From Natrinema gari JCM 14663 (GTDB lineage Archaea > Halobacteriota > Halobacteria > Halobacteriales > Natrialbaceae): a DNA stretch of 64,000 nt. The notes beneath the pieces are model-generated. The model was not told where the DNA came from and ran no database searches. It saw only the letters and a list, made by a program, of their open reading frames with translations. Below, piece after piece: positions 16,975 through 25,611 of the stretch. The translations under genes were made by a program, and so were the position numbers. The stretch covers positions 1,745 to 65,744 of the forward strand of contig NZ_AOIJ01000058.1 in the NCBI RefSeq assembly GCF_000337175.1, given 5' to 3'. The first letter of the stretch is position 1. Every line of letters starts with the position of its first letter.

Positions 16975-17024
16975 GAACCATACTATTCGTGATATGTAAC
17001 GACAAGTGGCGCGAGTTTTCGACA

Positions 17025-17294
17025 ATGAGAAAATCGGCGGATTGGATGAGTATCGCGGACGAACGGATTCTTGAGGCGCTTCAGGAGAAAGAATCAGGCA
17101 CGCCGACAAGTCTGTCACAAGACGAATACGTCCGATTCAGCCGTACGCATCTACACCAGAGGATGAAAAAATTAGAACGCCATGGATTGATTCGTTTTCT
17201 CGGGAATGGGGTGTACGTCCTTACCAACGAAGGCCAACTGTACCTTGATGGTGAACTCGACGCGGCGGAACTCGAACCGGACGACGAAGACTGA
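17025..17294 (+). CDS. PhiH1-repressor-like winged-helix regulator
   Basis: An 89-residue protein with the haloarchaeal virus-repressor pattern: SADWMSIADERILEAL (about residues 4-19), then HLHQRMKKLERHGLIRFLGNGVYVLTNEG as recognition helix and wing, and an acidic tail. Such proteins regulate element or viral genes. The start is the ATG at 17025; a GTG at 16989 would add 12 residues. It probably binds the palindrome at 16956-16974 and controls itself and the divergent lipoprotein gene. Confidence 0.8.
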   Translation: MRKSADWMSIADERILEALQEKESGTPTSLSQDEYVRFSRTHLHQRMKKLERHGLIRFLGNGVYVLTNEGQLYLDGELDAAELEPDDED

Positions 17295-17307
17295 ACCTGC
17301 TCTTTCC

Positions 17308-17517
17308 CTAAAACGGAACGAGAAGGTTTCTATCGCGCCCTTCGATGATGGCAGCACCACCAGCGGGTCGAGAGAGTCGCATGAGTGTGTCGTGAACGCG
17401 TTCGTCGCGGAGCGAATGGCATTGAAGGTCGTTTCTGACGGTCGCTCTGCGGCGCTGTACGGCCATTTGAGTGGCTTCTAATTCCCACTGCGCATTGTAT
17501 ATAGAATTATGATTCAC
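17308..17517 (-). CDS. Possible small gene, 69 aa
   Basis: An open frame converging on the HTH gene. The translation has amphipathic helical character (WELEATQMAVQRRRATVRNDLQC) but is not acidic. A/T-rich sequence suitable for a promoter precedes it. It could equally be a chance frame in a 350-base gap that also holds the structured leader. Confidence 0.3.
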   Translation of the reverse strand: MNHNSIYNAQWELEATQMAVQRRRATVRNDLQCHSLRDERVHDTLMRLSRPAGGAAIIEGRDRNLLVPF

Positions 17518-17534
17518 TACAATTATAATGCCAC

Positions 17535-17635
17535 GGCACCTACTATATTGTACGGAGCCACTGTCTCTTCGGGGTAATCTCGCTATGAGAAAGCCCGGCG
17601 CTTGGGACGCCGGACAGTGGCTCTCTGAAGGTGCC
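17535..17635 (+). ncRNA. Structured leader RNA candidate upstream of the SWIM gene
   Basis: A nested set of inverted repeats folds this 101-base interval into a closed multibranch structure. P1 is GGCACCT/AGGTGCC (17535-17541 with 17629-17635). P2 is an 11-bp perfect helix, GAGCCACTGTC/GACAGTGGCTC (17555-17565 with 17613-17623). Inside P2 are two hairpins, TCTC-GCTAT-GAGA and CCGGCG-CTTGGGA-CGCCGG. A TATA-like TATATA lies near 17498. The structure ends eight bases before the ATG of the SWIM zinc-finger gene, so it would form in that gene's 5' leader. I do not recognise a known family. Confidence 0.55.
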
Positions 17636-17643
17636 AGAAAGCC

Positions 17644-18063
17644 ATGAGTACATCCACGCTCGACTTACTTGAGTACGACGACCAGATAGCCAAGAGGGCG
17701 CAGTGGGAAGCCTTCGAGTTCACCGCCCTCGGTGACGGCGACGTAGAAGTAGTGAACGACTCTCACGAAGAAGCCGACGACCACACCTACACGGTTCACG
17801 TCGAGGGCGGTATCCCGTCGGACTGTACGTGTCCGGCATGGGAGTACCAGCCCGGCGCGTGCAAGCACATGGTCGCCGTCGCCATTCGAGAGCCAGTCCT
17901 CGAAGCGGCCAGCCGGGAGCAGCCTGTCCGCGCTGACGGTGGTACTGCCACCCTCGACTCGTTCACTACCGAGGACACCGACGAAGGCAAGTGCTGGTGC
18001 GACGACTCGGACTTCCCGTGTTTCGGATGCTACAACGATGGTCGGCGCGACCTTCCGGGTTGA
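17644..18063 (+). CDS. SWIM zinc-finger protein
   Basis: A 139-residue protein with a SWIM-type zinc site, DCTCPAWEYQPGACKHMVAVAI (CxC...CxH, about residues 59-80). It is preceded by the usual beta-strand lead-in (HTYTVHVEGGIPSD). A second Cys-rich segment near the C-terminus (KCWCDDSDFPCFGCYNDG) may bind another metal. SWIM proteins are thought to bind DNA or proteins; small ones are frequent on haloarchaeal plasmids and elements. It is followed within six bases by another zinc-finger gene and then by a TATA-binding protein paralogue. Confidence 0.85.
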   Translation: MSTSTLDLLEYDDQIAKRAQWEAFEFTALGDGDVEVVNDSHEEADDHTYTVHVEGGIPSDCTCPAWEYQPGACKHMVAVAIREPVLEAASREQPVRADGGTATLDSFTTEDTDEGKCWCDDSDFPCFGCYNDGRRDLPG

Positions 18064-18069
18064 GGGCGA

Positions 18070-18345
18070 ATGACCCGACCGTCGCCTGCGGCGGCTCTCA
18101 ACGGCGTCGAGACAGGCCACATTTGCGACCAGTGCAACCGGGGAATCCGGACAGGCGACAAAGCCGTCGTCTACGCCACCTACTACGACGCCGATGGGTG
18201 GGTCGTCCGGCGCGTGTGGTGCGACGACTGTGGAAGTACGACCATCGGCTTACCGACCGATGGTGCCGACGAAGTCGTGGTCGAGGCCGTGTACTGGCAG
18301 GGACGACTCGTCGGTGTGACCACGGTAGACCGGAGTCGGCCTTGA
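18070..18345 (+). CDS. Small zinc-ribbon protein
   Basis: A 91-residue protein with two CxxC pairs, CDQCNRGIRTGDKAV and VWCDDCGS (about residues 19-55), framing a short beta-rich domain (VYATYYDADGWVVRR). This gives a zinc-ribbon-like fold. The C-terminal part is an acidic strand-rich tail. It starts six bases after the SWIM gene ends and is presumably co-transcribed. The role is unknown; a small regulator or nucleic-acid-binding adaptor is plausible. Confidence 0.7.
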   Translation: MTRPSPAAALNGVETGHICDQCNRGIRTGDKAVVYATYYDADGWVVRRVWCDDCGSTTIGLPTDGADEVVVEAVYWQGRLVGVTTVDRSRP

Positions 18346-18391: not shown

Positions 18392-18940
18392 GTGGTAGAG
18401 CCAACGGTCGTCAACGTCGTCGGGACAATCACCTATCAGCAAGAGATAGCGTTAGACGCGTTGGCGGACACATTCTCTCGCCGTGGTGAAATCACTGACG
18501 TAACCTACGAACCTGCCGAAAATCACTGGCTACAGACTCGGTTCGCGCCCGATGATACCTACGTCGCATTCTACCGAAGCGGTCGCTGTTCAATAGTAGG
18601 CGGTAATTCAGTCGAACACTTTCATGAGATAGCAGACCGGGTTAATACCCTCATGCGGGACATTCTACAGTTCGAGTACGAGCCGACCGTAGAAATCAGC
18701 AATATCGTCGCTACGGCGGATATTGGGTCATCAATCCCGTTGGAAGTCCTAACACTCGAACTTGGGATGGAACACACCGAATACGAACCCGAACAGTTCC
18801 CGGCGCTCATGTACCGAGAAGAGGATTATGTCATGTTGGTCTTTGCCAGCGGGAAACTGCTTTGCACCGGACTGACCGATGTGGTAGATGTGACCGACGC
18901 GATTGAACAGATGGAATCCCGACTACGGGCAGTCGTATAG
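18392..18940 (+). CDS. Divergent TATA-binding protein paralogue
   Basis: A 182-residue protein whose second half is an unmistakable TBP repeat: EISNIVATADIG (about residues 101-112), EYEPEQFPALMYRE (130-143) and VFASGKLLCTG (150-160), with both DNA-contacting Phe positions kept. The first half is a degenerate repeat (VVNVVGTI, YRSGRCSIVGG), so the two-repeat saddle is retained in length. TBP recruits TFB and RNA polymerase to promoters. Element-borne TBPs are known in haloarchaea, but this one is unusually divergent in repeat 1. The start is GTG at 18392, with TATA-like TTATACC about 30 bases upstream. Confidence 0.88.
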   Translation: MVEPTVVNVVGTITYQQEIALDALADTFSRRGEITDVTYEPAENHWLQTRFAPDDTYVAFYRSGRCSIVGGNSVEHFHEIADRVNTLMRDILQFEYEPTVEISNIVATADIGSSIPLEVLTLELGMEHTEYEPEQFPALMYREEDYVMLVFASGKLLCTGLTDVVDVTDAIEQMESRLRAVV

Positions 18941-19663
18941 TTACACGTCTTCTTCGCTAAACACCAACTTCGCGCTGTTCTGTTCTAACCACTCGGCCTT
19001 CTCCTTGTAGTCAGGGACGTGTTCTCCGACGAACTGCCAGAACTCTCGTCCGTGGTGCTGTTCGGTCAGGTGAGCGAGTTCGTGGACGACGAGGTAACCA
19101 ATAACGTCGGGCGGGGCCATAATGAGCCGCCAGTTCAGGCTAATCGTTCCACCAGTCGAACAACTACCCCACCGTGTGCGCTGGTTTCGGAGTTCAAGTT
19201 TTTCGTACTCGACACCCATGCGCTCGGCGTAGTGGTCGGTACGGTCGGTGAGATAGTCCCGCGCCCGGCTTCGGTAGAAATTTTCGAGAACTTGCTTGAC
19301 CGACGATTGCTCGACAGCACTCTTTCGGAGCCGAATCGAATCCTCGTCTACCTCGTGCTTTCGGCAGGATTCTATGACGAGTTCTCGGTCTTGTCCGAGG
19401 AACGGGAAGCACGCACCCGCCTCGAAAGTCCGGTCGGGGACTTGCTCGCGGTAGGAGTCGTACTTCCGTCGCTGGTCTACTACCCACGCCGCGTTCTCTT
19501 TCAGCAACCTCAATGGACGAACATCCTCGGACTCGGGAACCACGACCGTCACGCCGTGTATATCCACGTCGATACGTGGCTCATTGGCGTCGGCACTGTG
19601 GCGTACCTCGTACTCGATGGGGTTCCCCAACAGGTCGATTTCACGCGGTTGCGCTTTAGCCAT
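18941..19663 (-). CDS. YgjP/DUF45 metallopeptidase-like protein linked to type I RM
   Basis: A 240-residue protein of the YgjP-like (DUF45, M48-related) family. It has the zinc motif HELAHLTEQHHGREFW (Glu catalytic, third His downstream) and the RWGSCSTGGTISLNWRLI segment before it. Such genes recur at the ends of type I restriction operons in bacteria and archaea, with no established role; protein turnover of the system is one idea. The start ATG overlaps the last eight bases of hsdR (ATGGCTAA), implying coupled translation. An upstream ATG at 19672 is also in frame. Confidence 0.88.
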   Translation of the reverse strand: MAKAQPREIDLLGNPIEYEVRHSADANEPRIDVDIHGVTVVVPESEDVRPLRLLKENAAWVVDQRRKYDSYREQVPDRTFEAGACFPFLGQDRELVIESCRKHEVDEDSIRLRKSAVEQSSVKQVLENFYRSRARDYLTDRTDHYAERMGVEYEKLELRNQRTRWGSCSTGGTISLNWRLIMAPPDVIGYLVVHELAHLTEQHHGREFWQFVGEHVPDYKEKAEWLEQNSAKLVFSEEDV

Positions 19664-22631
19664 TGTTCGCAATGAGGTAGTTCCGAATCGCGTCTACGAA
19701 ATCGTCGTCGTCCTGAATCAAGTGTCCAAGGTCGTACTGCTTGACCAGCACATCCAGCAGGATTCGTTCGATTTCAGCGATGGTCTGCTGGTTCGTCTTC
19801 CACCCGTGGTAGCCACGGTCCACGCGGTCGCGGAATTGCGAGACGATTTCCCCGGCCACTTCTTCGGCCTGTTTTTCGGACTCGATAGTCTCGGTCGTTT
19901 CTTCGGTCAGGTGGGTGTAGATAGCGAACTCGGCGGCTTCCATCCCCTTCTCGTCGGCCTCGGCTTCCACGTCAAGAATCTCTTCCTCGACGGCCTTGAG
20001 GGCTTCAACGGCCTCGGGGTCGCCTATCTCGTCACCCTGCCAGCGTTCCACTATGTCCGTCACACGCTCGCTCAAGCGCTTGTAGCGCGGGTTCTGGTTC
20101 TCTCGAGGATGTAGGTGTTCGCGGGTCGCGTGGGCAATCTGTGAGGCCTTGACGCCGGGGTTATCCAGTCCTTCCACGTCTTCGAGGTATTCCTCACCGA
20201 GCTTGTACGTCGGGAAGTCCCGCTTGATTTCCCCGATTTCGACGTTCTCGCTGATTATCTCGCGGGTCTTCTCTTGCATGTCCTCTTCGGGGTCGTCGTC
20301 GCCGGACGTGGTTCGCTTGAACGCGACATGAACCCGACTCAACCACTTGTAATCATCTTCGATACCGCTCTCTATGAGCCGTTTGTCAGGCGCAACGGAC
20401 TCGTAGAGCGACTGTAGCCGTCGGAAGCCCTGTTTGAATTGGCGGCGTTCGGGATGGGTGCTGACGCGTTCTACGGCCTCATAAGCGGCTTCTTGGCTGT
20501 CGTTCTTCGGTATCCCCTCGAAGATTTCCATGACCGTTGCCAACTGGTCCTTCAGGTCCTCGAAGAGTTCGCTCTTGTCGCGGGCGGCGTAAGCCTTTGT
20601 CTCGTCGTCGTAGTCCAGCGCCTCGTCGATGTTCTCGAACACGCCTTGGAAGTCCACTATTTCGCCGTTCTCCTTACCCTCGGCAGGCCGGTTCGTCCGG
20701 GCGATTGCCTGCATGAGCGTGTGGTTCTTGAGATTCCGGTCGAGGTAGATGGTCTTCAGAATCGGGGCGTCGAAACCCGTCAACAGCATATTGTGGACGA
20801 CCAGCAGTTTCGGGTCCTCGTCTTCCTTGAACGACTTGATGATACTGTCGCGCTCGTCAGGGTCGGTATGGAACTGCTTAATCAGGTCTGGGTCGTCATT
20901 GGTGGTCGTGTAGAGAACTTCCACTTCGTCCTCGCCGCGACGGTCTATGAGTCGCTCGCCGTACATAGCGGCTGACCGGCGGCTCGGCGTGACGACCATC
21001 CCCTTCCAGCCGTTCGGGGAAACGTGGTCGTCGTAATGCTGGTCGATTTCCTCGACGGCCTTGTCTACGCGAGGTTCGATTTCTGCGAGCGTGGTCGTGT
21101 TGACCGCCTCGCGGATGAACTCGCGCTTCTCGTCTTTGGTGAGGCCTCGAAACTCGTGGTCGAACTCTTCGTCCAGCCCGGCCTCATCAATCTTCCATTC
21201 CATCTCGTGCCGGAGCGTGAAGTAGACGGGCAGAATCAGACCGTCCTCGATACCTTCCTTGACCGTGTACTGGTGTAGGTACCGTTCGCCAGTTCGGTAG
21301 TCTTCACCGTCGGGCGAGAACTCGCGGAAGGTGTTTCGAGCCTTCTGTGTCTCGCCTTCCCTGACGGGTGTGCCGGTGAAGCCGAAGTGGTAGCAGTCCG
21401 GAAGCGCGTTGTCGAGGCGACTACCAAGGTCGGCTTCCATGAACCGGTGAGCCTCGTCGCTCATGACGATTACCTCGTCGTTGCCCTGCGCGTCTGGCTC
21501 TACGTCCTGAAACTTCTGAATGGTCGTAAGGACGAGTTCGCTCTGGCCTTCTTCTATGAGTTCTTCGAGGTGGTCGATACCCGTGGCTTCGGTCCACCGT
21601 TCGAGGGAGAGGTTCGCCAATTGGTCCCGCATTTGGGAGTTCAGTTTGTCTGTGTCTACGATAATGAAGACCTGCGGGTTGTCGGCCATGTCGCGGGACA
21701 GCAGGTTCTCGGCGGCGTAGAGCATGGTGAAGGACTTGCCCGACCCTTGGGTGTGCCAAATGAGGCCAGTCTTGTCCTCGCCCTCGTCCACGCGGTCGAG
21801 AATTGCGTTCACGGCGTAGTACTGCATGTACCGAGGGACGATTTTCGTGTCACCGCCCGCTCGGCGCTCGAAGAAGACGAAGTTCTTCAGCAGGTCGAGA
21901 AGGGAGCCGGGATTGCACAGCGCCTTCACCGCCTGCCGTATTTCGTTGTCGTCGGCGTACTCGTCGGGGGCGTCGTTCCACGGTTCGTAGAACTCGCGTG
22001 GTACGCCGACCGCGCCGTAGCGTAGTTCCATCGTGTCGGCGGCGACGTTGAACAGGCTGGGGATGAACAGCCGGGGAACGTCGTCTTCGTAGGCCAGCAG
22101 GTCGCTCACGGCGTCGTGCCAGTCGTTATCCTGCGCTCGGCTCTTCAGTTCCATCGTCACGAGCGGAATCCCGTTGACGAAGAGATTCACGTCCGGGCGA
22201 ATTGTCGTCTCGCGCGATACCGAGAACTGATTCACGGCGTGGAAGGTGTTGTTCTCGGGATTCTCGTAGTCTATCAGGTCTACGTAGACGGTCTTCGTCA
22301 CCCCGTCCGGGCGTTGGACGGAGAATGTCTTGCCCTTCGTCAGCAGTTGGTAGAACGCTCGGTTGCCGTCTATCAGGTTCTCGCTGTCGAGGTCACGCTT
22401 CAGCGACGAAATGAATTTCTCAACGTTTTCCTTGGTCACCTCCTTGTTGAGCGCTATGACCTGTTCGGCCAGCAAGTCCCAATAGACGATTTCGTGGCTC
22501 TGCCGGTCATACGTGGCGTCGAGGGCGCTCGCACCACGGTCGCCGTCTTGCCCGTAGGTGTCCCATCCGACGGTGTTGAGCCACGATAGAAGCGAGTGTT
22601 CAACGCCCTCTTCGGATGGGTGGTTAGCCAT
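19656..22631 (-). CDS. hsdR: Type I restriction enzyme, endonuclease/translocase subunit HsdR
   Basis: A 991-residue protein of normal HsdR length. The N-terminal PD-(D/E)XK nuclease is seen as RPDVNLFVNGIPLVTMELKSR (about residues 158-178, with Asp and Glu-x-Lys). A superfamily 2 translocase follows: Walker A HTQGSGKS (about 290) and motif II MSDEAHRF, with motif III-like FGFTGTPV downstream. Motif VI appears as QAIARTNRPAEGKENG. A helical C-terminal part contacts HsdM/HsdS. It should translocate DNA and cut distant unmethylated sites. It overlaps hsdS and the peptidase gene by eight bases each, both times with the sequence ATGGCTAA. Confidence 0.96.
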   Translation of the reverse strand: MANHPSEEGVEHSLLSWLNTVGWDTYGQDGDRGASALDATYDRQSHEIVYWDLLAEQVIALNKEVTKENVEKFISSLKRDLDSENLIDGNRAFYQLLTKGKTFSVQRPDGVTKTVYVDLIDYENPENNTFHAVNQFSVSRETTIRPDVNLFVNGIPLVTMELKSRAQDNDWHDAVSDLLAYEDDVPRLFIPSLFNVAADTMELRYGAVGVPREFYEPWNDAPDEYADDNEIRQAVKALCNPGSLLDLLKNFVFFERRAGGDTKIVPRYMQYYAVNAILDRVDEGEDKTGLIWHTQGSGKSFTMLYAAENLLSRDMADNPQVFIIVDTDKLNSQMRDQLANLSLERWTEATGIDHLEELIEEGQSELVLTTIQKFQDVEPDAQGNDEVIVMSDEAHRFMEADLGSRLDNALPDCYHFGFTGTPVREGETQKARNTFREFSPDGEDYRTGERYLHQYTVKEGIEDGLILPVYFTLRHEMEWKIDEAGLDEEFDHEFRGLTKDEKREFIREAVNTTTLAEIEPRVDKAVEEIDQHYDDHVSPNGWKGMVVTPSRRSAAMYGERLIDRRGEDEVEVLYTTTNDDPDLIKQFHTDPDERDSIIKSFKEDEDPKLLVVHNMLLTGFDAPILKTIYLDRNLKNHTLMQAIARTNRPAEGKENGEIVDFQGVFENIDEALDYDDETKAYAARDKSELFEDLKDQLATVMEIFEGIPKNDSQEAAYEAVERVSTHPERRQFKQGFRRLQSLYESVAPDKRLIESGIEDDYKWLSRVHVAFKRTTSGDDDPEEDMQEKTREIISENVEIGEIKRDFPTYKLGEEYLEDVEGLDNPGVKASQIAHATREHLHPRENQNPRYKRLSERVTDIVERWQGDEIGDPEAVEALKAVEEEILDVEAEADEKGMEAAEFAIYTHLTEETTETIESEKQAEEVAGEIVSQFRDRVDRGYHGWKTNQQTIAEIERILLDVLVKQYDLGHLIQDDDDFVDAIRNYLIANNG

Positions 22632-23991
22632 GCTGTGCGATTTCCTCCGGTACCTCTATGTTCGTATCGGTCGTTCGGACTGTTCCCGACAGCAGGTCTT
22701 GCATAAGGCCCTGCTTGAAGCGTTGAAGACGTTGTAGGTAGTCGCGCTCGTTTCGAAGTGCCTCGGAGTGCTGGTCAATTATCTCGACAATTTGGGCTTG
22801 TTCTTCTTCCGAAGGGAGGTGAACGGGTACTTCTCGAAGGTCTTCCAGATTAATTCCCTGAACAGCCTGTCCGATAGTGTTCCTCTCGAAGTAGTTATTC
22901 GGTGTTTCCGTCTCGAAAAAGTACCGAATGAAACGAGGATTGGCCTCTGTGACTCGGATACGGGCAGTGTCCTGCGTAATATTTCCTCCGTCCAATCGTT
23001 CTGGAACGAAGGCCATTCTACCGACCGTTCCCCGGATAGTGAATAACAAGTCACCCTCCCTCAACTCGGCACGCTTGAAGTCCTCGTGTATCTCTTGGGA
23101 CGTGTGGAGGATGTCGCCCTGCTTTACTTCTCCATCGTGAATGTCTTTCACCTTCACAACAGGGACACCATCTGGCTGATGGTCGCCGGGCTTCAAAATT
23201 CCGTAGACGATAGGGGCGTCTTCAGGGACGAGTTGGCTCAAGGGAACAATATTCCAACTCTCGGGAATTTCTCCGTACTTTGTCTCACGGTACGATTCAG
23301 AGCTGCCGTCGGAATTACGTAGTTCTCCGTCTTCATCTAACCCGTATCGGAATAGGTCTTGCATTAGTCCTTTCCTCACCCGAGTCGCCTGTTCTGTGAT
23401 TTCCTCGGTCGTCTGAATCGCTTGGTCTACGTTTTGGAGTACGGTAGCGATTTTTCGCTGTTCAAATTTCGGAGGTACAGGTAGTGGATACTGTTCAAGC
23501 ACATTTGTCTGAATACTTTCAACGGTTGTTCCAGTCTTCTTGCAACTTCCTCGTATATCTTCAGAAAGTCCCGATATTGATTGAAAAAAATACTCTGCGT
23601 TGACCTGCTCCCTGTCCGGGTCAAGGGCCTTCAAATCCTGATTGATGGTTGTTTGATTATCGACTATTGCAACGGGTAAGGTATGCCGTAGAACACCACT
23701 CCGAACGACCATGAGAGTCGTGCCGGGAGGGTATATTTTGGACGTTGACGCCTCTGCCCCCTTCTTCGTCATCTTGTCTTCAGTGTCATTTAGTCGTGGG
23801 GAGTCGAAGTCTTTCGGCGATGTCCACAGGATTTCTCCCCCCTCCCAGTATTCGTCGTTGCTCTTTTTTGGAGTGCTTCCACCCCCAATCTCGCATAAGT
23901 CAATGAGACTTTTTTCAGCCCATTCCGCCGTCTCCTTGTTTCCCTGTTCTCTTGAGTCTGCGAAATCATCTAACTTTGCTTCTTCACTCAT
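22624..23991 (-). CDS. hsdS: Type I restriction enzyme specificity subunit HsdS
   Basis: A 455-residue specificity subunit with two target-recognition domains. The first opens with LIDLCEIGGGSTPKKSNDEYWEGGEILWTSPKD-type sequence and ends in the conserved LPVPPKFEQRKIATVLQNVDQ spacer helix. The second begins GEIPESWNIVPLSQL and ends EEQAQIVEIIDQHSEALRNE. Each recognises half of a bipartite site; the sequence cannot be predicted here. It overlaps hsdM by eight bases (ATGAGTGA) and hsdR by eight (ATGGCTAA). TRDs vary rapidly, so this gene sets the specificity carried by the element. Confidence 0.95.
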   Translation of the reverse strand: MSEEAKLDDFADSREQGNKETAEWAEKSLIDLCEIGGGSTPKKSNDEYWEGGEILWTSPKDFDSPRLNDTEDKMTKKGAEASTSKIYPPGTTLMVVRSGVLRHTLPVAIVDNQTTINQDLKALDPDREQVNAEYFFQSISGLSEDIRGSCKKTGTTVESIQTNVLEQYPLPVPPKFEQRKIATVLQNVDQAIQTTEEITEQATRVRKGLMQDLFRYGLDEDGELRNSDGSSESYRETKYGEIPESWNIVPLSQLVPEDAPIVYGILKPGDHQPDGVPVVKVKDIHDGEVKQGDILHTSQEIHEDFKRAELREGDLLFTIRGTVGRMAFVPERLDGGNITQDTARIRVTEANPRFIRYFFETETPNNYFERNTIGQAVQGINLEDLREVPVHLPSEEEQAQIVEIIDQHSEALRNERDYLQRLQRFKQGLMQDLLSGTVRTTDTNIEVPEEIAQHG

Positions 23992-25495
23992 AATTCAGCG
24001 CCTCCATGTGGCTATCCATCCGCGCTTCAATTTCGTCGCGCTCGGCCTGCAACTCGCGTAGTTTCCCGAGTTCTTCCTGAACGTCAATCTCTTCCTCCGG
24101 CTCGGTCGTATCGACGTAGAGCGCGATGTTCAGGTTGTAATCGTTTTCCCGAATCTCGCCCAGTTTGACTGTTCGGCTGACTCTCTCTTCGGTCGTCCAG
24201 TTGCGGAAGTTCTCGACAATGTGGTCAAGACCTTCCTCCGTCAGTTCGTTTTGGTTTGACAGTTCGCGGTAGAAGTCTTCGTCTGCGGCGTGAACGAATT
24301 GAACCTCGTTCTTCCGCTCGGCTGGCTTGTCGGTGTTCAGCACGAGGATGGCCGACGGAATCGAGTTGTTCTGAAAGAGATTCTCGGGAAGCCCAACGAT
24401 TGCTTCCACAAGGTCGTCTTCGAGCATTGGCTCGCGGAATTTGCTCTCGTGCTTGCGGAACAGCACGCCGTGGGGTATGACGATTGCGGCCTTCCCACCC
24501 GAGTCGTCGCCTCGCTCGCGGTCTTTCAGTTGCTCGGCCATGTGCATGATGAAGGCGTAGTCACCCCGGTCGGCACGAGGTAGTTTGCCATTGTCTGCCC
24601 AATCGAAGCGACCATACGGGTCGTCCTGAAGGTCGCTCTTGGCCCAGTCTGCCGAGAACGGGAAGTTAGCCAGCACCCGGTCGAAGCGCGTGAGTTCATT
24701 GTCGCCCTCGTTGGTGAACGCCGGACTCGACAGCGAGTCTTCGCGCTCGATAGTGCCATTCAGGCCGTGAATCGAGAGGTTCATCTTCGCAATCGCGGCA
24801 ATGTCGGGATTGATTTCCTGCCCGGTGAAGGTCAGTTTCGAGGGGTCGCCACCCTGTTCCTCACGGTAGTACCGGGCAGCCTCAATGAGCATACCACCGG
24901 AGCCGACGGTCGGGTCGTGGAAGGTGTGGCCGTCCTCGAACTCGTCCACGAGACGAACGCAGAGGTTGACGATGTGGGGCGGGGGGAAGAACTGGCCACC
25001 GGATTTGCCTTCCTCTTCCGCAAAGTGGCGAACCAAGTCCATGTAGGCCTCTCCGAGCATGTCCGGCGGGATACTGTCTCGGTCGAGGTCGTACTTTGAG
25101 AGGTGTTCGACCAGTTTCCCGAGCCGGTCATCGTCCAGTGCGTCGGCGTCGATGTAGTCAGCCCGGAAGAGGCCCTGAAGTTCCGGGTTCTCTTCGGTGA
25201 GCGCGTCGAAGGCTTCGTTCAGTTCCTTGTCCACGTTGTCCGAGACGGAACGAAGGTCGTCCCACAGGTACCCCTCGGGTACGACCGGAATGTCGTACAG
25301 GTTCTCCCGGCGGGCGAAGTCCTCTCCGTACTCTTCGAGGTTCTGCTGGTACTGTTTTTCGAACTCGTCGCTTATAGATTTATAGTATACTAAAGGAAGA
25401 ATAAATTCTTTATAATCTGTTGGGTCTACAGCGTCACGAATAATGTCGGCACACTTGAAAAGATGTGAGTCCAGTTCTTCCAATGAGAGGGTCAT
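23984..25495 (-). CDS. hsdM: Type I restriction enzyme methylase subunit HsdM
   Basis: A 503-residue N6-adenine methyltransferase subunit. The N-terminal HsdM helical domain runs to about residue 140. SAM-binding motif I is FHDPTVGSGGMLIEAA (about 189-204). The catalytic motif IV reads NFPF rather than the commoner NPPF, a variant also seen in other type I HsdM proteins. The ending RDEIEARMDSHMEAL is the coiled-coil tail that meets HsdS. I prefer the ATG complementing 25493-25495; a GTG nine bases upstream is possible. A TATA-like AAATAACA about 25-33 bases further upstream probably drives the whole four-gene operon. Confidence 0.95.
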   Translation of the reverse strand: MTLSLEELDSHLFKCADIIRDAVDPTDYKEFILPLVYYKSISDEFEKQYQQNLEEYGEDFARRENLYDIPVVPEGYLWDDLRSVSDNVDKELNEAFDALTEENPELQGLFRADYIDADALDDDRLGKLVEHLSKYDLDRDSIPPDMLGEAYMDLVRHFAEEEGKSGGQFFPPPHIVNLCVRLVDEFEDGHTFHDPTVGSGGMLIEAARYYREEQGGDPSKLTFTGQEINPDIAAIAKMNLSIHGLNGTIEREDSLSSPAFTNEGDNELTRFDRVLANFPFSADWAKSDLQDDPYGRFDWADNGKLPRADRGDYAFIMHMAEQLKDRERGDDSGGKAAIVIPHGVLFRKHESKFREPMLEDDLVEAIVGLPENLFQNNSIPSAILVLNTDKPAERKNEVQFVHAADEDFYRELSNQNELTEEGLDHIVENFRNWTTEERVSRTVKLGEIRENDYNLNIALYVDTTEPEEEIDVQEELGKLRELQAERDEIEARMDSHMEALNYE

Positions 25496-25611
25496 ACGCG
25501 TCACATTTCATGCGAGCGTGTTATTTGCTCCGGTAAAGTTCGGAGACGACGAGCGCAAGGTTGTCGTAACAGACTCGCGTGTGTTCCGACTCGACTGGTG
25601 AGGCGCTCTAT

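Follow-up and report, generated by a model that had tools for sequence, protein, structure and literature searches.

Upstream of a SWIM zinc-finger gene, the 64,000-nucleotide stretch of Natrinema gari JCM 14663 DNA analysed here (the window) carries a folded RNA leader. It is a member of a leader family not catalogued before, which stands at the head of early virus-type operons in salt-loving archaea. The family, two alternative pairings of the leader and its promoter and repressor context were all established computationally. Two competing closures beside the start codon suggest a control switch for virus genes. We consider it best read, with a probability of roughly 0.6, as a bistable 5' leader of early virus and provirus operons, controlling translation of the first gene on top of a transcriptional repressor.

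A folded element before a start codon

A preliminary description had proposed a candidate cis-regulatory RNA or small RNA at positions 17535-17635, made of an outer 7-bp helix (P1), a perfect 11-bp helix (P2) and two internal hairpins, next to a start codon and with a nesting improbable by chance. The region 17525-17645 folded with -49.8 kcal/mol against -36.8 ± 3.7 kcal/mol in shuffles (z = -3.5, 0/200 as good), and the transcript-sized piece 17553-17646 with -41.5 versus -30.8 kcal/mol (z = -3.3, 0/200 dinucleotide shuffles as good), in agreement with the claimed improbability. The predicted fold of 17553-17646 is a three-way junction of P2, P3 and P4. The P2 core joins GAGCCACTGTC (17555-17565) to GACAGTGGCTC (17613-17623) by 11 perfect pairs, or 13 when two G-U ends are included, and the two internal hairpins correspond to P3 and P4. 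The leader ends 3' at an AUG, the ATG at 17644 that opens the SWIM zinc-finger gene. The limits of the element were corrected to ~17553-17643, so that it reaches the AUG; P2 and both inner hairpins were retained, P1 was removed, and a competing helix that had been overlooked, P5 (17619-17627 with 17635-17643), was added. The features are listed below, R1 and R2 being the first and second covariance models of the family.

17025-17294, + strand: winged-helix regulator gene, relative of PhiH1-type repressors (PHROG 2440 transcriptional regulator, E 1e-31)
17523-17529, + strand: putative TATA box TTATAAT, from the family spacing of TATA-like hexamers
17535-17541, + strand: 5' arm of the formerly proposed P1 (partner absent in L002, L040 and L041; upstream of the probable transcript start)
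~17553-17643, + strand: structured leader RNA (R1 match 17546-17646, 63.8 bits; R2, 68.7 bits; fold z -3.3)
17554-17566, + strand: P2 5' strand (partner 17612-17624; upper P2 pairs all with both-side changes in homologues)
17572-17596, + strand: P3 hairpin (GGGU/GCCC, inner UCUC/GAGA)
17597-17611, + strand: P4 hairpin (GGCG-CUUGGGA-CGCC; 97.4% of cells paired)
17612-17624, + strand: P2 3' strand (its base, 17619-17624, common to P2 and P5)
17619-17627, + strand: P5 5' strand GGCUCUCUG (8/9 paired with 17635-17643; both-side changes in 9/9 model pairs; swap z -14.7)
17628-17634, + strand: P5 loop AAGGUGC, holding the Shine-Dalgarno (SD)-like AGGUG
17635-17643, + strand: P5 3' strand CAGAAAGCC, ending at the AUG
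17644-18063, + strand: first gene, SWIM zinc-finger protein, 139 aa (Pfam PF04434, E 8e-9)
17644-17680, + strand: conserved reading-frame start, first 12-13 codons (+29 A in 93/98, +36 C in 89/98, +37 G in 95/98)
18070-18345, + strand: second gene, 91 aa, zinc-ribbon-like (below Pfam cut-offs)
18392-18940, + strand: third gene, TATA-binding-protein homologue, 182 aa (Pfam PF00352, E 7e-33)

At the DNA level, P1 (17535-17541 with 17629-17635) forms an inverted repeat. The nearest full-length relatives (L002, L040 and L041) retain its 5' arm, GGCACCT, and have no AGGTGCC, the 3' arm. In 56 of 98 loci of the family, model position 1 (17546 in the window) is preceded at a distance of 23-25 nt by a TATA-like hexamer. 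Since TTATAAT at 17523-17529 fits this spacing, the window RNA would start near 17551-17554, downstream of the 5' strand of P1. With one arm missing from the relatives and the other upstream of the probable start, P1 is probably not part of the leader RNA, and its description as an RNA structure was abandoned. Homologues that keep the sequence and break the pairing, named beforehand as evidence against the element, were found for P1 only; the other helices keep their pairing.

The cis-regulatory half of the original proposal gained support from a covariance model and compensatory changes (see below). Each of the 98 loci inspected has the element ending at a start codon, which makes an independent small RNA less likely; this anchoring is only partly independent of the covariance model, which itself has a start-codon-like tail. 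No Rfam 15 family matched the region at gathering or permissive thresholds.

Family, covariation and alternative pairings

By blastn, the element was found in only 9 of the 391 genomes of the class, in most cases with a SWIM gene downstream; these genes fall into two or more protein families. Nucleotide BLAST alone misses most of the leader family. As MAFFT alignments put the 5' strand out of register, R1 was built from four divergent members with the structure set by hand. It matched at E ≤ 0.1 in 99/391 class genomes, the weakest of these matches being uncertain. After this search 80 further regions were added, and R2 matched at E ≤ 0.01 in 18 of 246 genomes of the phylum, all from the same order or closer, the total scanned beyond the order not being given. 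R2 found five matches in the window's own genome, the window copy included; the window sequence is its only full-length copy there. The other four lie at G000:C51:218567-218663, C31:29297-29396, C42:64789-64894 and C32:101125-101217, and the one on C51 (L088) has the same folded shape as the window leader.

Some individual loci deserve a separate mention. Three equal-score matches (E 0.049) occur in one genome (G410:C1:28305, 2740638 and 2769546), perhaps from a recently duplicated element. L042 (G138:C1:1982868-1982917) is a truncated copy that keeps the promoter and the 5' half of the leader, with other DNA in place of the 3' half, and its neighbouring ORF is transposase-like by eye. Several more distant SWIM genes (L020, L025, L031, L034 and L037) have a hairpin of another kind near their start, simple and GC-rich, e.g., CCCCTGAGGGGTGCGGGG, perhaps another leader type.

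In the alignment of 98 distinct sequences, 24 of the 25 pairs showed changes on both sides, 91.4% of cells were paired (70.7% in shuffles), and the covariation score was 0.507 versus 0.163, with 0/500 shuffles as high. These counts lean towards the structure, to which the alignment had been fitted; the sequences themselves were taken from the model search. Shifting the partner by 1-3 columns reduced pairing to 32-50% and destroyed the signal. When pairs were ranked by mutual information, the ten strongest all belonged to P2, P4 or P5. P2 is real and also covaries across homologues, and the compensatory changes that the preliminary description proposed to look for were obtained.

The same data bear on whether the element could be a transposon or inverted-repeat remnant, the refutation envisaged at the outset. 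The perfect 11-bp inverted repeat and the mobile context would be compatible with such an origin, but the genome holds no second full-length copy, relatives are anchored to start codons and compensatory changes preserve the pairing as the sequence drifts. We regard a remnant as highly improbable.

The middle strand, GGCUCUCUG, can pair either with the 5' end of the RNA (P2 base) or with the strand preceding the AUG (P5). The three strands were cut from each locus and the pairing energies of own and swapped partners were compared. Own partners were favoured both for the 5' and middle strands (P2 base, -8.25 vs. -6.07 kcal/mol, z = -11.5) and for the middle and 3' strands (P5, -8.16 vs. -5.24 kcal/mol, z = -14.7), whereas the 5' with 3' control gave no support (-1.68 vs. 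-1.83 kcal/mol, z = +1.6). This test does not remove relatedness between loci; the control nonetheless did not rise. As the P2 base was outside the model, its support is independent of the model fit. Computed energies had the middle strand mainly paired 5' in 73/98 loci and mainly 3' in 16/98. In the window they favour the P2 form, so that P5 would be a minor state there unless a trigger acts. The P5 loop contains an SD-like 4-mer in 51/98 loci, compared with 27.8 ± 3.9 in shuffles. The leader unites a conserved structure with a mutually exclusive expression platform, as riboswitches do.

A helix that seals the 5' end could instead stabilise the mRNA, shielding the early transcript from decay, with P5 as a secondary feature. 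The annotated start of virus phiH1 transcript T4 at the first base of such a helix, and the TATA distance that suggests the same elsewhere, would suit this explanation. It leaves P5 covariation and the fixed position of P5 at the AUG unexplained, however, and we consider it improbable.

Repressor, operon and proposed mechanism

The winged-helix regulator of the window shares 44% identity with the "PhiH1-like repressor" of virus HHPV4. Its ORF is also open from a GTG at 16989, and the start at 17025 was chosen because relatives begin MRKSADWMSIADER. By homology and position, it is a candidate repressor of the leader promoter. In the window group, ~230-250 nt of conserved-looking DNA with no obvious gene lie between the regulator gene and this promoter (17295-17522 in the window).

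Across the family, a divergent winged-helix ORF lies within 200 nt upstream in 67/98 loci and a same-strand one within 700 nt in 8/98 (the window form, ~250 nt upstream), the remaining 23/98 having no repressor ORF in either arrangement. These counts come from a winged-helix HMM built from upstream proteins hand-picked as HTH-like; 47 had been scanned with Pfam and PHROGs, and no rate is drawn from those 47. Repeats flank the TATA region, direct in 44/95 and inverted in 37/95 loci (p ≤ 0.05 vs. simple shuffles), often 34-36 nt apart. They differ between loci, and we read these locus-specific repeats as putative operators. An integrase is encoded within 10 kb of at least 19/79 leaders, about 1 being expected (65/99 genomes). 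Terminase was tried as a provirus marker and dropped, as it is present in only 8/65 genomes.

The first ORFs with at least 40 codons (89/98) were scanned with Pfam, the window protein standing in for the identical L061. A SWIM domain was found in 35/89, in more than one protein family, which would be compatible with the leader being an autoregulatory site for the adjacent SWIM protein. Most of the tested first ORFs lack a SWIM match at E ≤ 0.01, however, and several encode unrelated proteins, making autoregulation by SWIM proteins a quite improbable explanation. No SWIM proteins were found in IMG/VR or the phage records. Unrelated first genes mostly have a common start of ~12 codons, near-invariant at +29, +36 and +37 (98 loci); pairing of the leader with these conserved codons was not supported. 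In the window, the operon of the SWIM gene also includes the TATA-binding-protein homologue, as the third gene after the leader. Further along, 18941-25504 contains, by eye, a predicted metal-dependent peptidase and ORFs resembling a type I restriction-modification set (R, S and M).

Taken as a bistable leader, the element could work as follows. The winged-helix repressor would control transcription from the TATA box and, once it is off, the RNA would begin at or beside the first base of P2. The P2/P3/P4 junction would fold first, leaving the SD-like loop tail and the AUG free (ON). When GGCUCUCUG leaves the P2 base for CAGAAAGCC, immediately 5' of the AUG, the resulting P5 would block initiation of the first gene (OFF). 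We infer both the identity of the ON state and translation as the controlled step. The neighbouring regulator presumably acts on the leader promoter, and an antisense RNA, the product of the first gene or another factor could serve as trigger. Hiding of the SD-like motif may be irrelevant, because SD motifs in 5'-UTRs did not aid initiation in Haloferax volcanii, according to the available part of PMC3986360; blocking of the AUG would then carry the control.

The leader was not described in the literature searched, whose coverage excludes the original phiH papers of 1991-1994. We regard the RNA family as new, belonging to a general type already known, the bistable leader, and occurring in an unexpected place. 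A more tentative and rather speculative extension is an RNA switch between lysis and lysogeny, in which a locus-specific repressor and operator would act on the DNA and a bistable leader common to these operons would act on the RNA. If so, a shared signal from host or virus could set early-gene translation whatever the immunity type, and haloarchaea, whose mRNAs are mostly leaderless, would possess a widespread structured regulatory leader. Of the protein-coding transcripts of H. volcanii, 72% lack a leader, and the authors of that study concluded that haloarchaea do not typically use structured leaders for control (PMC4983044, available portion). A covarying leader that is present in a quarter of the sampled class genomes and linked to early virus-type operons stands out as an exception, with a clear design open to testing. 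It also offers a sequence tag for locating provirus immunity regions and a structural frame for the old phiH observations on T4/rep and T1/Tant.

Virus leaders and comparison with known systems

Comparable leaders were seen in several viruses. Virus BJ1 has two, one before ORF7, beside the divergent winged-helix ORF6, and one before the PadR-like ORF21, beside ORF20; its authors reported ORF20 as similar to the phiH1 repressor, in the part of their report available. Humcor1 and Halorubrum tailed viruses have the leader architecture with P5 directly 5' of the AUG. In the immunity region of phiH1, the early lytic transcript T4 has its annotated start (34556) at base 1 of a P2-like closing helix (fold z -7.7), and the immunity region of phiCh1 has the same T4-type three-way junction; in both T4 leaders, no AUG directly follows the P5-like pairing. 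A transcript start at the first base of the closing helix is annotated for phiH1 T4, and TATA spacing suggests it for the window family.

R2 found no match at E ≤ 5 for the phiH1 T4, Humcor1, Halorubrum tailed virus and first BJ1 leaders, and a weak one (E 0.22) for the second BJ1 leader. With most of these leaders beyond the reach of R2, their proposed kinship with the window family rests on position and predicted fold. No IMG/VR contig convincingly carries the leader. A DNA pattern scan gave 86 stretches, which were taken as chance; of the 80 put to R2, none reached E 0.9.

The leaders of BJ1, Humcor1 and the Halorubrum tailed viruses share with the family the P2/P3/P4 junction and a P5 (GCUGUC...GACAGC) placed directly before the AUG. 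They adjoin divergent ORFs, that of BJ1 being a winged-helix repressor, and differ in a sequence too diverged for R2, apart from the weak second BJ1 match. The T4 leader of phiH1 and its phiCh1 equivalent have the three-way junction in common with the family, which may also share the phiH1 transcript start at the first base of the closing helix. The back-to-back arrangement of T4 and repR is comparable to the repressor-adjacent leaders of the family; a review (PMC4284463, available part) likewise places T4 back to back with rep and states that its promoter is bound by Rep. The P4 of phiH1 type, CCGUG-CUGGUAU-CACGG, resembles the CUGGAA loop of the family, and the downstream strand can re-pair with GAAGGC in the manner of the family's shared strand. 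In contrast to the family, phiH1 T4 falls outside R2 at E ≤ 5, and both T4 leaders lack an AUG directly after the P5-like pairing.

The T1 leader of phiH1, by eye, is closed by its own first bases, as in the family, and repeats an AGAGC motif before the AUG. That of phiCh1 has, by eye, a similar closing and pre-AUG arrangement with changed bases; the minimum-energy fold of the piece used showed no closing helix, the piece having begun inside it. T1 differs from the family in its longer internal part and in its regulation by an antisense RNA. By analogy, the leader might exist to be paired by a counter-transcript made in the lysogen, as Tant pairs with T1, and pairing might lead to cleavage near the ribosome-binding site. 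The phiH1 record has Tant spanning the entire 151-nt T1 leader, T1 is cleaved after Tant binds (as reviewed in PMC4284463, in the portion available), and the T1 leader shares the closure by first bases and the AGAGC before the AUG. Two covarying helices that exclude one another are not needed for such targeting, however, and we judge it rather unlikely to be the main role of the leader.

Read as a bistable leader, the element differs from riboswitches in having no known ligand, in its absence from Rfam and in being tied to repressor and operator regions instead of a metabolic pathway. With riboswitches and other bistable leaders, it shares a conserved junction whose closing strand also serves the hairpin at the start codon.
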